Shown: positions 15,868-62,501 of the stretch, one piece after another
Layout: every line of letters starts with the position of its first letter
Position numbering within the stretch: the stretch's first letter is position 1
DNA from: Fredinandcohnia onubensis
GTDB taxonomy: Bacteria > Bacillota > Bacilli > Bacillales > Bacillaceae_L
Assembly (NCBI RefSeq): GCF_031181385.1
Contig: NZ_JAPSKV010000012.1
Location: forward strand, 62,001-126,000
Reading direction: 5' to 3'
Length of the DNA stretch: 64,000 nucleotides
Notes under the pieces: generated by a model
Databases searched by the model: none
Told to the model about the DNA's origin: nothing
The model's input: only the letters and a program-made list of their open reading frames with translations
Translations under genes and position numbers: made by a program

Positions 15868-16785
15868 TTAGTTGCCAAGAAATGATTCAATGAAAAATTC
15901 TAGTTGATATTCAAGTGTAATTGGATCATTAAAGTAAAATTCCTTTGCATTTGCTACATAAGCTTGGTTGTTTTTAACAGCAGGAATATTTTTATACGTT
16001 TCTGAATCCATAAAGGAAGTTTCTGTATCTTCTGCTTTACTTACAATTAAATAATCTCCAACAAACTCTGGAAGTACCTCTAAAGATAATGAATAGTAAC
16101 CTGCTTCTAGTGCCATTTCTTTTACCTTTTCTGGCATGTTCAATTTCATTTCTTGATATAAAATCTCTGTACCGCGTGCCCAGTTATCACCAAAGACATA
16201 AAGTTCCTTATCGAAGTTTTCAATGACTGTAACTGTAGCGTCTTCACCAATTTTAGCCTTTATTTTTTCTCCAGCATCTTTGGCACGCTTTTTAAAGTCA
16301 TCAATCCATTTTTGTGCTTCAGCTTCTTTGTTTACTAACTTACCGATTTCCAATTGTTGAGACAAATAATCCAATTTTCCATAAGTAAACGTTACTACAG
16401 GTGCAATTTCTTTTAATTTATCCACGTTTTTCATTGTAGAGAGACCAATGATTAAGTCCGGCTCTAGTTCAATGATTTTCTCTAAGTTTTCATCTGTTAC
16501 TTCCTCGACACCGTCTAATTTATATCGAGGATTTCCTTTAGACCAAGAATCGACACCTACGACTGGTACATCCAAGGCCAGAACATTTCCTGCAAAAGTG
16601 GAAAGCACAACCACACGTTGTGGATTTGCGGGCACTTCAACAGGTCCATTCTCAGATTGATATGTAATTGTATCAGAAGAACTTTCTTCTTTTGAGGTAC
16701 CGTTTGATTCACTGGTGCTGCCACCACAAGCTGCTAGACTAAATAGTAACAAGATTAGTAGAAAGGGGATTGATAGTTTGTTCAT
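15868..16785 (-). CDS. fhuD: Hydroxamate-siderophore-binding lipoprotein (FhuD/YxeB-like)
   Basis: A 305-residue class III substrate-binding lipoprotein. The signal ends in a lipobox SLAAC-GG (Cys20). The helical-backbone siderophore-binding fold shows NPQRVVVLS, LEPDLIIGLS and a C-terminal FYFNDPITLEYQLEFF segment that closely follows B. subtilis FhuD. I therefore favour ferric hydroxamates (ferrichrome, schizokinen class) as ligand; this is inference from family resemblance. RBS AAGGAG precedes the ATG, and the start overlaps the end of the ATPase gene by 47 bases. Confidence 0.87.
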   Translation of the reverse strand: MNKLSIPFLLILLLFSLAACGGSTSESNGTSKEESSSDTITYQSENGPVEVPANPQRVVVLSTFAGNVLALDVPVVGVDSWSKGNPRYKLDGVEEVTDENLEKIIELEPDLIIGLSTMKNVDKLKEIAPVVTFTYGKLDYLSQQLEIGKLVNKEAEAQKWIDDFKKRAKDAGEKIKAKIGEDATVTVIENFDKELYVFGDNWARGTEILYQEMKLNMPEKVKEMALEAGYYSLSLEVLPEFVGDYLIVSKAEDTETSFMDSETYKNIPAVKNNQAYVANAKEFYFNDPITLEYQLEFFIESFLGN

Positions 16786-17581
16786 TTGATTTTTCTCCTT
16801 TTAATAAATGATAAGTTAGACACATAGGTTTATTTGTTCGTGGATCTTTCCCAATGAGAGCATCAATATGAAACACTTCTCTTAGGACTTCGTTCGTAAT
16901 CACATCTTCAGAAGTACCAGCCTTTACGATTTGACCATGTTTTAGAGCAATTATGTAATCAGCAAAACGTGCGGCATGATTTAAATCATGTAGAACCATT
17001 ACGATCGTCCGCTTCTGTTCTTGGTTAAGCTTATGTAAGAGCTCTAATATCTCGAGTTGATGCGCCATATCAAGGTAAGTTGTAGGTTCATCTAGAAAAA
17101 TCATCTCCGTTTCTTGAGCTAAAGCCATGGCAATCCATACACGTTGGCGTTGTCCGCCAGAAAGTGCATCGACAGGGTGATATTTAAAAAACGATGTCCC
17201 CGTAACGTAGAGCGCCCAGTTTATTATCTCAATGTCCTTATTTGTTAGTCGGCCAAATCCTTTTTGATAGGGAAAACGTCCGTAAGAAACGATTTCTCCA
17301 ACTGTCAAGCCACTAGCGCTTTCAGGACTTTGAGGGAGTATAGCTAGCTTTTTTGCGAGTTTTTTCGTATTTTCCCTTGAGATACTTTCTCCATCCAAAA
17401 TAATCGAACCAGATTGATGTGGGATTACACGTGACATCGCTTTTAACAGAGTAGATTTTCCGCAGCCGTTTGATCCAATAATCGTTGTAATCTTTTGATC
17501 AGGAATTTCAATACTTAAATCCTTAACGATTAACCGGTCGCCATAGCCAATATGCAAATCCTTTGTAAAAAGACGAACCAT
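16739..17581 (-). CDS. fhuC: Siderophore ABC transporter ATP-binding protein (FhuC/YusV-like)
   Basis: A 280-residue ATPase. Walker A is GSNGCGKST, the signature is LSGGQRQRVWIAMAL, Walker B is MIFLDEPTTYLD, and the H-loop is VLHDLNHA. It energises the FecCD permeases. The true start is ATG 17581 with GGAGG six bases upstream. An in-frame ATG at 17632 has no ribosome site and falls at the edge of the perfect Fur box, so it was rejected. It is the first gene of a four-gene iron-uptake operon (ATPase, binding protein, two permeases). Confidence 0.92.
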   Translation of the reverse strand: MVRLFTKDLHIGYGDRLIVKDLSIEIPDQKITTIIGSNGCGKSTLLKAMSRVIPHQSGSIILDGESISRENTKKLAKKLAILPQSPESASGLTVGEIVSYGRFPYQKGFGRLTNKDIEIINWALYVTGTSFFKYHPVDALSGGQRQRVWIAMALAQETEMIFLDEPTTYLDMAHQLEILELLHKLNQEQKRTIVMVLHDLNHAARFADYIIALKHGQIVKAGTSEDVITNEVLREVFHIDALIGKDPRTNKPMCLTYHLLKGEKSNEQTINPLSTNLVTI

Positions 17582-17616
17582 GATATTCCTCCAGTTGTAA
17601 GATTTGAAAACGATAT

Positions 17617-17631
17617 TGATAATCATTATCA
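17617..17631. promoter_or_regulatory. Fur box 1 (fhu-like operon)
   Basis: TGATAATCATTATCA is a perfect 7-1-7 inverted repeat matching the Bacillus Fur consensus. It lies 36 bases upstream of the ATPase start codon. Confidence 0.92.
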
Positions 17632-17661
17632 CTATAAGTTATAATGATACTATAATTCTAT

Positions 17662-17676
17662 TGAGAATCATTGTCA
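17662..17676. promoter_or_regulatory. Fur box 2 (divergent reductase gene)
   Basis: TGAGAATCATTGTCA matches the 7-1-7 Fur consensus at 13 of 15 positions. It lies 67 bases upstream of the reductase start and 31 bases from box 1. Confidence 0.8.
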
Positions 17677-17742
17677 ACTAGGTTTTTCGCAATAAATAAT
17701 TTGTTATGAATTTTATAGAAATATATTCGAGGAGTGTTTTGA

Positions 17743-18792
17743 ATGCGGAAACATGAATGTTATGATGTGACAATTATTGGCGGGGGACCAGCTGGTCTTT
17801 ACTCTGCGTTTTATAGTGGATTACGGCAAATGAAAACAAAAATAGTCGACTTTCAACCATATTTAGGCGGGAAAATACACATTTATCCTGAAAAGATGAT
17901 TTGGGATATAGGGGGACTAACTCCTCTACCAGGTGCAAAGTTAATCGAGCAGCTAGTTAAGCAAGGTCTAACATTCAATCCTACAGTTGTTCTAAATGAA
18001 CGAATCACTTCGATCACCAAGAATGAAGCTGGATTGTTTGTAATGAAGTCGGCTTCTGGTAAGGAACATTATTCGAAAACAGTGATAGTTGCCGTAGGGA
18101 GTGGAATCTTAAAGCATCAAAAGTTAGATATTCAAGGTGCGGAGCGGTTTGAGGTCTCAAATCTTCATTACACGGTCAAATCTCTTCAGCATTTTAAAGA
18201 TAAGATTATTATTATATCAGGTGGTGGTAATACGGCGCTTGATTGGGCCAACGAGTTGGAGCCAATTGCGAAGGAAATATATGTGATTCATCGCAAATCG
18301 AAGTTTTCTGGACATGAATCCCAAATTACAAATCTAGAAAATAGTACAGTCAAATGCTATTTTAATACCACTATTACAAAGCTCATTGCGACTGATAACC
18401 GTGATGAAATTAGGAGAGTAGAATTAACAAACAACGAAACAGGTGATACCGATTTATTATCAGTTGATGATGTGGTGATAAACCATGGTTTTGAACAAGA
18501 TACATCATTACTGCAAAACAGTGAACTTGAAATTGAAATGCTAGAAAATTTTTATATAGCTGGAAACGCTCAATGTGAAACATCTATAGAGGGACTATAT
18601 GCAGCAGGGGATATCATTAAATATGAAGGTAAAGTAAACTTGATTGCGGGTGCATTTCAAGATGCAGCAAATGCTGTAAACAAAGCGAAAAAATTTATTG
18701 AACCGAGTGCGAATGAAGCAGCAATGGTTTCGTCCCATAATGAAGTGTTTAATCAGAGGAATCGGGAATTAATAAGCGAGATGTTGAAATAG
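17743..18792 (+). CDS. Ferredoxin/flavodoxin--NADP+ reductase, YcgT/YumC family
   Basis: A 349-residue thioredoxin-reductase-like FAD protein without the redox CxxC. The FAD motif GGGPAGLYSAFYSG, the NADPH motif ISGGGNTALDWA and the C-terminal GLYAAGDI segment are clear. This family moves electrons between NADPH and ferredoxin or flavodoxin. Its Fur box and divergent pairing with a siderophore importer suggest it helps release iron from siderophores reductively (inference). RBS GAGGAG precedes the ATG. B. subtilis YcgT is the iron-regulated relative. Confidence 0.9.
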   Translation: MRKHECYDVTIIGGGPAGLYSAFYSGLRQMKTKIVDFQPYLGGKIHIYPEKMIWDIGGLTPLPGAKLIEQLVKQGLTFNPTVVLNERITSITKNEAGLFVMKSASGKEHYSKTVIVAVGSGILKHQKLDIQGAERFEVSNLHYTVKSLQHFKDKIIIISGGGNTALDWANELEPIAKEIYVIHRKSKFSGHESQITNLENSTVKCYFNTTITKLIATDNRDEIRRVELTNNETGDTDLLSVDDVVINHGFEQDTSLLQNSELEIEMLENFYIAGNAQCETSIEGLYAAGDIIKYEGKVNLIAGAFQDAANAVNKAKKFIEPSANEAAMVSSHNEVFNQRNRELISEMLK

Positions 18793-19436: not shown

Positions 19437-19462
19437 AAAGGAGCCCCTGAAGCTCCTTTTAC
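19437..19462. terminator. Bidirectional terminator
   Basis: The 8-bp stem AAAGGAGC with GCTCCTTT lies between two converging genes. Confidence 0.75.
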
Positions 19463-21252
19463 ATATCCTTGCCTATATGAAAAAATCGGTACGTCATTAT
19501 AAGTCCAATTAGGAACAAACAAATGGCAAAGTAAGCAGGAAGCAGATGGATAAAGGTTGTATATCCAATCGCAAAATGAATCCAAATCCCGGCGAAAAAG
19601 GCTGGAAGTCCGCCAATGAGTAAGGTCCACCAAACCCATTTATTCCCTTGCTGAAATCCCCAGAGAGAAATCGTCAGGACTAACAATCCAACACTGAGTA
19701 GTGCACTTCCAAACCCCGCACGATCATGAGCAATCACTGATATCAATTTATGATTAAACAAATCAAGCACTTCGGGTGGCATACAAAGATATAAAATGTC
19801 AGTTGCAACAAACACCTTCGTTATTCCAATAATAGAAATCACAATCCCGCCCAACACGAAAGAAAAACCAAGAATGACAAAGGCCAATTGCCCTATTATA
19901 CTATGTTTCCAAACGCGGTGATTACGGGTGTTAAGCGATGTTGGGGTCCCTTTAAGGGATCTTGTTTTCATAAACCCAATTAGATAAATTGGAAGTAAAA
20001 TAAGCCAAAATATCAAATGTAACCAATCAAAATAGCCGTATCCGATAAAAAGGAAAATACCTAAAAAGCCGAGAATGGCTGCTAAATCGATGGCCTGCTT
20101 TGCCCAAAGAATTTGGTTGCGTACTCCAAAACGCGCCAATGCCATATAGACGATACCACCGGAAATCATTGTCCCAGCGAGTGTCATCCGGTCATGTGCC
20201 ATAAAATAAAGAATCCGATCATTAAACAAGAGGATTTCTTCTCGTTGTATCCCAAGAAACAGTTCATCATAAGGGAGAATAATGGTTGTCAGACTGAAAA
20301 GAACAGCAATTATTCCACCAATAAGAATGGACAATCCAAATAGCCAATACCAAATCCATCCGGGTTGAACCGGAGGCTTAGGCTGAAGTTTGTGTGTTAG
20401 AGCTTCATTAATACGCTTTGTTAGGCCAGGTCCAGAGAAGACATAGCCTCCTGAAAGTAGAACAAGATCGGCCCCAGCTTCGAAAAGTGCAAGAGCATCG
20501 GCAGGTTCATAGATGCCACCAACTGTAATGACAGGTAGGGAGAAACCATGTTGCCTTAAATAATAGAGCGAATCTAGTAATTCACTCCTATATTTTTCAT
20601 TCGGTAGATTCGGGGGTTCATCTACTACTATTCCAGAAAAACAGGTCTGAACACGATTGAAATCCAAGTTTCTAATTTTATCTGCTGGGACAGACAGATA
20701 AACAGGGCGATCTGTTGAACAACGAAGGTCCATTGAAGAAGTGACAAACGCTGCAACACAGGACTCTAATCTCGTTATTAAATAGTGTAGTTCTTCGTCC
20801 GTTCCATCCAATCTTGCCAAAACGGGTTGTATTGGTTTCCACTTTTCAAGCGTTTGAACCGTTCTTTCAATTCCGATAGATTCATAATTTACAGGAAAAT
20901 CAATTTGCTGCTTTCGCCAATCAACGATTGGTAGAGTAGGGTCAGTTGTGGGCTCTATCGTCACTGGACCAATTTCAATCAGACCAAATCCAAGATTTGA
21001 AAAAGCTCTAGAACCAGTTAAAAGCGGATCGGTTTTTCCAGAAAGGCCAATCGGATTTGCGTAGCTCACACCTTGGATTTCTTTTTTTACAAGTTCAGAA
21101 GATTCCTCTCTACCAAGAAAATGAATCAACCGATGTCCTCCTGGTATGGAGGCAACCAGATTCATACCTCTGTGGATAAATTCCCGAGATTGATAGGGAG
21201 AAATTCGAGATAAAATAGGTTTAAATAGTATATGATACGACCAATCAGGCAT
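19459..21252 (-). CDS. Fusion of a dihydroorotate-dehydrogenase-like TIM barrel and a polytopic membrane domain
   Basis: A 597-residue protein. Residues 1-300 follow class 2 dihydroorotate dehydrogenase: an N-terminal amphipathic region (PYQSREFIHRGM), PIGLSGKTDPL at the FMN site, NLGFGLIEIGPVT, and a C-terminal phosphate-binding VGGIYEPADAL...LLSGGYVFSGP. The expected lysine of the AAGFDKN-type motif and the Asn-rich orotate loop are missing, so activity as PyrD is doubtful. Residues 310-597 hold about eight membrane helices in two similar halves, each containing an AHDR motif (FMAHDRMTLAG and VIAHDRAGFGS). RBS GGAGG precedes the ATG. The function is unknown. Confidence 0.8.
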   Translation of the reverse strand: MPDWSYHILFKPILSRISPYQSREFIHRGMNLVASIPGGHRLIHFLGREESSELVKKEIQGVSYANPIGLSGKTDPLLTGSRAFSNLGFGLIEIGPVTIEPTTDPTLPIVDWRKQQIDFPVNYESIGIERTVQTLEKWKPIQPVLARLDGTDEELHYLITRLESCVAAFVTSSMDLRCSTDRPVYLSVPADKIRNLDFNRVQTCFSGIVVDEPPNLPNEKYRSELLDSLYYLRQHGFSLPVITVGGIYEPADALALFEAGADLVLLSGGYVFSGPGLTKRINEALTHKLQPKPPVQPGWIWYWLFGLSILIGGIIAVLFSLTTIILPYDELFLGIQREEILLFNDRILYFMAHDRMTLAGTMISGGIVYMALARFGVRNQILWAKQAIDLAAILGFLGIFLFIGYGYFDWLHLIFWLILLPIYLIGFMKTRSLKGTPTSLNTRNHRVWKHSIIGQLAFVILGFSFVLGGIVISIIGITKVFVATDILYLCMPPEVLDLFNHKLISVIAHDRAGFGSALLSVGLLVLTISLWGFQQGNKWVWWTLLIGGLPAFFAGIWIHFAIGYTTFIHLLPAYFAICLFLIGLIMTYRFFHIGKDM

Positions 21253-21311
21253 GTTTCGTCCTCCATGATAGGCTTTTATCCGTATTGTATCATAATTATA
21301 AATCTTATAAC

Positions 21312-21350: not shown

Positions 21351-21554
21351 TTATTCTTTTGGAGCTCGTACGACAGATTCGAAATTTCCCTTATGCGAAC
21401 CGTCGCAAAAGGGTTTATTTTTAGACAAACCGCATCTGCATAATGAGAAGGTTTGTTTTGTAGGGAACTTATTCCCTTCCTTATCCACTAAATCAACGTC
21501 ACCTGTGATCCTTAATGAACCATTATCATTTACCTTAATCGTAACCTTTGACAT
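21351..21554 (-). CDS. CDGSH-type iron-sulfur protein
   Basis: A 67-residue protein with the single CDGSH motif CRCGLSKNKPFCDGSH. The three Cys and one His are the known ligands of the redox-active, acid-labile [2Fe-2S] cluster of mitoNEET-type proteins. The physiological role in Bacillus is unknown. RBS near AAGGAGGG precedes the ATG. It is divergent from yqkB, another Fe-S-related gene. Confidence 0.92.
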   Translation of the reverse strand: MSKVTIKVNDNGSLRITGDVDLVDKEGNKFPTKQTFSLCRCGLSKNKPFCDGSHKGNFESVVRAPKE

Positions 21555-61358: not shown

Positions 61359-62501
61359 ATGACATTTATTCGCAGAAGAATTTTTATACTTATCATCACT
61401 GTTATGGTTCTCTTAGGCTTAGTTCCTCAAAAAACGAGCGCACTTTCTGTTAGTGCAAAAGGTGCGATCTTAATAGAGCAAGAGTCTGGTAGAATTTTGT
61501 TTGAAAAAAATGCACATCAACGAATGAGAATCGCAAGTATTACAAAAATCATGACGGCTATCATCGCCATTGAATCAGGAAAACTAAACGAGATGGTTAA
61601 GGTGAGTAATAAAGCTGTGCGAACAGAAGGCTCCTCCTTATATTTAAAGCCTAATGAACAAATAAAGCTTGAGGATTTAGTTTATGGATTGATGTTACGA
61701 TCTGGTAATGACTCTGCAGTTGCTATCGCTGAGCATGTGGGTGGTAGTTTGGAAGGCTTTGTTTTTATGATGAACCAAAAAGCTGCCGAAATTGGTATGC
61801 AAAACACAGAGTTTGCAAATCCACACGGGTTGGATGACCATGAAAATCACTATTCATCTGCTTATGACATGGCCATTTTAACCCGATATGCGATGATGAA
61901 CGAAAAATATCGGGAGATTGCCGGGACAAAAGTGCATCGTGCCCCTAACCCAACTGAAAAATGGGATCGTGTTTGGAGAAATAAAAATAAGTTACTGACG
62001 AAGCTTTACCCGTATAGCACAGGCGGAAAAACAGGCTATACAAAGCGAGCCAAACGGACCTTGGTATCAACTGCAACAAAGGATGGAATTGATTTAATTG
62101 CTGTAACGATAAATGCCTCTGATGACTGGAATGATCATATGAATATGTTTAACAGAGCTTTTGAAACGTATGATTTAGTAAAGGTCATCAAAGAAGGCGA
62201 TCTTCAAACAGATAATAGTTTTTATAAAGGGAAAGTATTTGTGGATCATGACTTCATGTACCCTCTAAGTGAGGAAGAGAAAAAGAATATTAAGCTCGAC
62301 ATTTCTTTATTGGAACCTGAAAAAGAGTGGCGTAAACCAGAAGCAGTTCCAGACATAGTAGGAACTATTACTGTGAACCTTGGTGATGAGACGATTGAGG
62401 AGATGCCTATCTATTTTGATAACGGCAATGTCGAAAGGTCCAAGGAAACATTTTGGGAAACACTAAAAAGTATTTTTCTAGTAATTTTAGGGGTTAGATG
62501 A
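61359..62501 (+). CDS. dacB: Sporulation D-alanyl-D-alanine carboxypeptidase DacB
   Basis: A 380-residue low-molecular-weight PBP (PBP5*; 382 in B. subtilis) that trims spore-cortex stem peptides and limits cross-linking. The signal peptide ends near KTSALS. The active site is S60-I-T-K63, then SGN in RSGND and KTG in GGKTGY. ATG 61359 has GGGACGGGG upstream; the longer frame from 61146 runs back through the sodF terminator and is spurious. The stop overlaps spmA. Confidence 0.94.
   Translation: MTFIRRRIFILIITVMVLLGLVPQKTSALSVSAKGAILIEQESGRILFEKNAHQRMRIASITKIMTAIIAIESGKLNEMVKVSNKAVRTEGSSLYLKPNEQIKLEDLVYGLMLRSGNDSAVAIAEHVGGSLEGFVFMMNQKAAEIGMQNTEFANPHGLDDHENHYSSAYDMAILTRYAMMNEKYREIAGTKVHRAPNPTEKWDRVWRNKNKLLTKLYPYSTGGKTGYTKRAKRTLVSTATKDGIDLIAVTINASDDWNDHMNMFNRAFETYDLVKVIKEGDLQTDNSFYKGKVFVDHDFMYPLSEEEKKNIKLDISLLEPEKEWRKPEAVPDIVGTITVNLGDETIEEMPIYFDNGNVERSKETFWETLKSIFLVILGVR

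Follow-up and report, generated by a model that had tools for sequence, protein, structure and literature searches.

A dihydroorotate dehydrogenase-like barrel that appears to have lost its active site, fused to a duplicated eight-helix membrane domain in Bacillales

Introduction

Class 2 dihydroorotate dehydrogenases (DHODs; PyrD) consist of a triosephosphate isomerase (TIM) barrel preceded by membrane-associated helices that make up the quinone tunnel. The protein described here, from Fredinandcohnia onubensis, shares both features and differs from class 2 PyrD in an added membrane domain of about 300 residues and in a gene that lies outside a pyr operon. This gene occupies 19459..21252 on the minus strand of a 64,000-nucleotide stretch (positions 62,001 to 126,000 of contig NZ_JAPSKV010000012.1, assembly GCF_031181385.1), referred to below as the window, and encodes 597 amino acids from an ATG start. 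That the protein consists of a DHOD-derived barrel, apparently inactive, and a duplicated eight-helix membrane domain is very likely. We favour reading it as a working membrane protein in which a class 2 DHOD without a catalytic site is joined to a tandemly duplicated domain of two times four helices carrying cofactor or head-group sites, and we give this statement as a whole a probability of about 0.4.

At least one such protein is publicly annotated as dihydroorotate dehydrogenase. This label is probably wrong because the active site appears to be lost, and it could mislead metabolic models and work on DHOD inhibitors. Here a nearly universal enzyme fold appears to have lost its catalytic site while joined to a strongly conserved membrane domain that is apparently undescribed; the parts of the open-access (PubMed Central, PMC) literature that were accessible contain no account of the protein or the fusion, which does not imply absence in print. 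Since roughly one in four sampled genomes of one order, and at least one actinobacterium, carry the membrane domain, its function is a tractable question.

Materials and methods

Short patterns taken from the window protein alone were searched for in 84,980 species genomes; of the 125 relatives that this gave, the best 80 were used. These come from Bacillaceae and related genera of Bacillales, two being labelled Paenibacillus. Two sequences with early stops (L046 and L068) were dropped, leaving 79 sequences including the window protein, and 42 of 43 sequences from further positive genomes of the order were added (the broken L137 being omitted) to give 121 in total. Genome searches with a profile of the membrane domain were centred on the host lineage (order and phylum), and plasmids were searched besides.

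Results

The N-terminal part of the protein is clearly related to class 2 PyrD, as the original prediction had claimed. It matches Pfam DHO_dh at 38.7 bits, above the gathering cut-off of 27. Ten class 2 NCBIfam models also match, scoring 48.6-87 bits where their cut-offs are 200-619, the best-matching stretches lying near either end of the barrel. The class 2 equivalog thresholds are not reached: the best model scores 87 bits against a cut-off of 267, and TIGR01036 scores 55.1 against 200. Against PDB sequences, the single protein gave 38 matches with E < 0.001, all of them DHODs by name (best E 2.9e-9), and a profile built from 65 sequences of the N-terminal part gave 44, comprising 38 DHODs and six weaker IMP dehydrogenases (best E 4.3e-16). 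In the structure model, N-terminal helices at residues 11-14, 19-35 and 39-47 (residues 1-47; 21112..21252) precede the TIM barrel (residues 48-290; 20383..21111), which is followed by eight long membrane helices interspersed with short ones. Class 2 PyrD structures superpose on this model at 2.1-2.3 Å over 273-287 residues (the five best matches, all bacterial) and share its motif order, GG turn and GP loop. The N-terminus, MPDWSYH, is invariant from M1 to Y6 in 65 of 65 aligned sequences, and the PyrD-like motifs quoted earlier (GFGLIEIGPVT, VGGI, SGGYVFSGP and SGKTDPL) are all present.

An intact flavin mononucleotide (FMN) and orotate site was looked for in the 121-sequence alignment and not found, so the eroded active site proposed earlier holds. 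The residue roles in FMN and orotate binding and in catalysis are those that we take to apply from E. coli PyrD. The FMN lysine of the DK motif is kept in a single sequence of 121, the position of Thr86, an FMN contact, is proline in all 121, and that of N139 is asparagine in seven. The first two glycines of the Gly-rich loop GGLSG are gapped throughout (121/121). At the NRMGF, NISSPN and TNT loops, where the window protein has FPVNY, SSMD and DEP, the PyrD residue is nowhere the commonest at the positions examined and, where listed, is present in no more than 14 of 121 sequences, with the alignment uncertain in this stretch. The Asn-rich loop, the loss of which had been predicted, is indeed lost: no aligned position has the PyrD residue as the commonest, and its count, where listed, does not exceed 15 of 121. 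What remains of these contacts is the Gly turns: the GP loop is kept in 121/121 sequences and the two glycines of the GG turn in 119/121 and 106/121. D75 of the DK motif is also invariant (121/121), and residues 111-235 contain no invariant column (0/125).

The membrane domain is built from two similar halves, each of four transmembrane (TM) helices: repeat 1 at residues 298-440 (19933..20361) and repeat 2 at residues 441-597 (19462..19932). Comparison of the two halves, profile against profile, gave a score of 96.8 and a probability of 98.7% over 133 columns, in register from HDR to HDR; against 14 unrelated hydrophobic families taken from the fetched loci, neither half scored above 24.3. The eight helices and the internal duplication read from the two AHDR-containing motifs (FMAHDRMTLAG and VIAHDRAGFGS, both present) are thus borne out. 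Modelled alone, the domain has a predicted local distance difference test score (pLDDT) of 92.1. The domain is apparently not an already described companion of PyrD, judging by the absence of a convincing Pfam or NCBIfam match: residues 297-597 of the window protein had no match at E <= 1, no family was matched by more than five of 65 members' membrane domains, and the lowest E values were 0.0028 in Pfam (a family found in three members) and 0.00063 in NCBIfam (one member, a DNA polymerase model). Among PDB sequences nothing was convincing, the sole match being a kinase at E 1.2, and Foldseek returned no PDB chain at E <= 0.001. One structural match stands out, chain O of the Ycf2-FtsHi chloroplast import motor (8xqw), to which the window protein shows no detected sequence similarity; apart from this chain the structure searches gave the membrane domain no close counterpart, which does not imply that the fold is new. 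The identity of chain O was not found in the accessible text of PMC7768757, PMC12485368 or the open PMC literature.

Conservation is concentrated in this domain, where mean column identity is 70%, compared with 47% in the N-terminal part (65 sequences). In a 54-row alignment of both repeats (27 of 42 representatives per half), every row has D, H-D-R, S, Y and H. In repeat 1 the residues found in 121/121 sequences are Asp329 (20266..20268), His353-Asp354-Arg355 (20188..20196), S364, Y407 and His412 (20017..20019); in repeat 2 they are Asp485 (19798..19800), His509-Asp510-Arg511 (19720..19728), His559 (19576..19578), which has no counterpart in repeat 1, Y564 and His569 (19546..19548). Counting helices in the model from a cytoplasmic barrel, we infer that these residues sit on or close to the extracytoplasmic face, S364 lying deeper. 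The loop charges agree with the positive-inside rule, since the predicted inner loops are net positive (374-384, +2.40; 428-448, +3.45; 530-539, +0.61; 590-597, +0.87) and the outer loops net negative (322-346, -1.87; 404-411, -0.96; 477-504, -2.43; 561-568, -0.30); the inner linker 290-299 (-0.26) is the exception.

The gene is alive and under purifying selection, with the strongest constraint on the membrane domain. When the window gene is compared with six relatives, the ratio of nonsynonymous to synonymous substitution rates (dN/dS) in the membrane domain is 0.047-0.062. For the barrel, five relatives (L007 being left out) give 0.11-0.19 over residues 1-110, 0.20-0.63 over 111-235 and 0.05-0.15 over 236-296. 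A frame of 589-679 codons surrounds the membrane domain in 95 of 96 positive genomes, the gene of the remaining genome (G441) being split. Eight of the 95 show one stop in the matched stretch, yet keep frames of 596-657 codons; five of these eight copies, translated unaltered, give 587-610 amino acids. A pseudogene is therefore rejected on the intact long frames and the purifying selection. The interrupted copies L137 (from G441), L046 and L068 may indicate that the gene is dispensable in some lineages, or may be sequencing errors.

The host possesses other DHOD-family genes, named here from reading their sequences: a pyrK-pyrD-pyrF-pyrE cluster, the PyrD of which is of class 1B (354 bits), and a PreA-like dihydropyrimidine dehydrogenase. 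A separate DHO_dh match of 333-357 bits was present in 20/20 other carriers tested out of 95, so that all 21 carriers tested, the host included, hold a second full-strength DHOD-family gene. The non-pyrimidine role suggested by the original prediction is probable for this reason.

In the host's order, the membrane-domain profile matched 96 of 396 genomes sampled, spread over 35 of 135 genera. The barrel is present in all 42 aligned proteins from positive genomes, and the frames described above are roomy enough for it in 95. Across the host phylum, 398 genomes gave two true cases, the host and one other genome of the same order; a third match (L085) was false, being CdsA-like on reading. A single-repeat profile run on 299 phylum genomes found the host and three false matches, which read as one SpoIIE-like and two RpoB-like proteins. 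Phage and viral collections yielded no relative (10 viral stretches were matched by pattern, none of them confirmed), and a defence library gave no match. The plasmid search added two relatives: a full-length copy on a 690-kb plasmid of Cytobacillus spongiae (L176:3001-4773), labelled dihydroorotate dehydrogenase, and a Mycobacterium branderi protein (WP_083132801.1), labelled hypothetical protein. The latter shares a PDWTYHP start, IEIGP, GPG, and the HDR and His residues, and its membrane domain is 36% identical over 299/301 columns, with S364 and Y407 not kept. Its N-terminal part has about 195 residues rather than 296, some 100 fewer, and has no Pfam DHO_dh match; its profile probability is 0.4% against class 2 PyrD and a marginal 57.8% against the barrel of the window family. 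This protein may represent a barrel eroded further while the membrane residues persist. A plasmid of Mycobacterium intracellulare carries what is apparently a remnant: a 225-bp gene (L177:2501-2725) that matches, over its first 61 codons (68.9%), only the beginning of the M. branderi protein.

Discussion

A working membrane protein with a catalytically dead barrel best explains the DHOD fold, the loss of FMN and orotate residues, the duplication, the purifying selection, and the retention of membrane residues while the barrel diverges. The barrel would be a cytoplasmic base that anchors or regulates, its retained C-terminal loop perhaps binding a ligand that bears a phosphate. The activity would reside in the membrane domain, at two related sites on the extracytoplasmic face. 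Each site would comprise an Asp, a His-Asp-Arg and a His, with the extra His in repeat 2; the likeliest ligand would be a cofactor (a metal, haem or one of the quinone type) or else a polar head group, taking part in membrane redox or lipid chemistry. That the twin His/Asp sites serve such a reaction is a tentative proposal, somewhat less likely than not. A more specific proposal is unlikely, namely that these proteins form a new family of membrane oxidoreductases or lipid-active proteins with a tandem four-helix repeat, two outer-face D/HDR/H cofactor sites, a dead DHOD barrel as cytoplasmic ligand sensor and the DHOD quinone tunnel kept. Of the original prediction, the barrel, its erosion, the duplication and the probable non-pyrimidine role stand; its membrane redox or quinone-linked sensor is not established, being directly supported by no cofactor motif, neighbour gene or known relative. 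The invariant His residues do no more than permit a redox or sensing role.

Several points weigh against the favoured reading. The catalytic position is Ser in 12/121 sequences, scattered members show the PyrD residue in the variable middle of the barrel, where the alignment is uncertain, and the FMN residue roles are carried over from E. coli PyrD; a flavin may sit in the barrel in a different pose. The grouping of the invariant membrane residues into sites follows from predicted helix order and topology. The 121 sequences are not independent, as the two source collections may share species, and several of the dN/dS comparisons approach saturation at synonymous sites. There is no conserved neighbour, the largest neighbour cluster covering 11/80 loci, and hence no pathway clue. 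Kinship with haem-copper oxidase subunit I, raised by weak VIA-align rows and a reading of TM1-TM2, failed in profile comparison, which was at background: the hhalign probability for COX1, represented by its 30 best-scoring matches with more divergent oxidases left out, was 0.3%, compared with up to 2.1% for 14 controls, and full-length frames behaved alike.

Among the alternatives, a transporter or a lipid- or envelope-processing enzyme, with head groups or ions bound at the two outer-face HDR/His sites and the barrel as a cytoplasmic stalk, is rather unlikely. The acidic outer loops, the Arg and His residues at the predicted interface and the internal duplication, common among transporters, are consistent with it; the missing family match and the lack of a PDB chain within the Foldseek threshold argue against it, and the halves would run in the same direction because each has four helices, unlike classical inverted-repeat transporters. 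It is improbable that the protein is a divergent active flavoenzyme, holding FMN or another phosphate-bearing cofactor by the retained GG and GP loops and passing electrons to the membrane domain. Those loops, D75 and the conserved N-terminal helices, the counterparts of which in class 2 PyrD make up the quinone tunnel, would suit such an enzyme. Against it, few or no members keep the Lys, Asn, Ser and Thr contacts, GGLSG is deleted, residues 111-235 lack any invariant column, and the Mycobacterium member has a shortened N-terminal part. A non-catalytic membrane scaffold or assembly factor, hinted at by 8xqw chain O, appears similarly improbable. A genuine quinone-dependent DHOD with an extra membrane anchor, as the above-cut-off DHO_dh match and the label on the C. 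spongiae relative would have it, is very improbable and is rejected on the lost catalytic and substrate residues, the low class 2 equivalog scores and the second DHOD-family gene in 21/21 carriers tested.

The surroundings of the gene add some minor observations. A likely ribosome-binding site, GGAGG (21260..21264, minus strand), stands 7 nt ahead of the ATG. The gene immediately upstream, also on the minus strand (21351-21554), encodes a 67-residue CDGSH-type iron-sulphur protein; a CDGSH-motif gene occurs upstream in 7/80 loci (L001-L007), all of them close relatives. On the other side, at 15868-18792, sequence reading places genes for a siderophore-type binding protein and an ATPase on the minus strand, followed on the plus strand by a gene resembling those of ferredoxin-NADP reductases.
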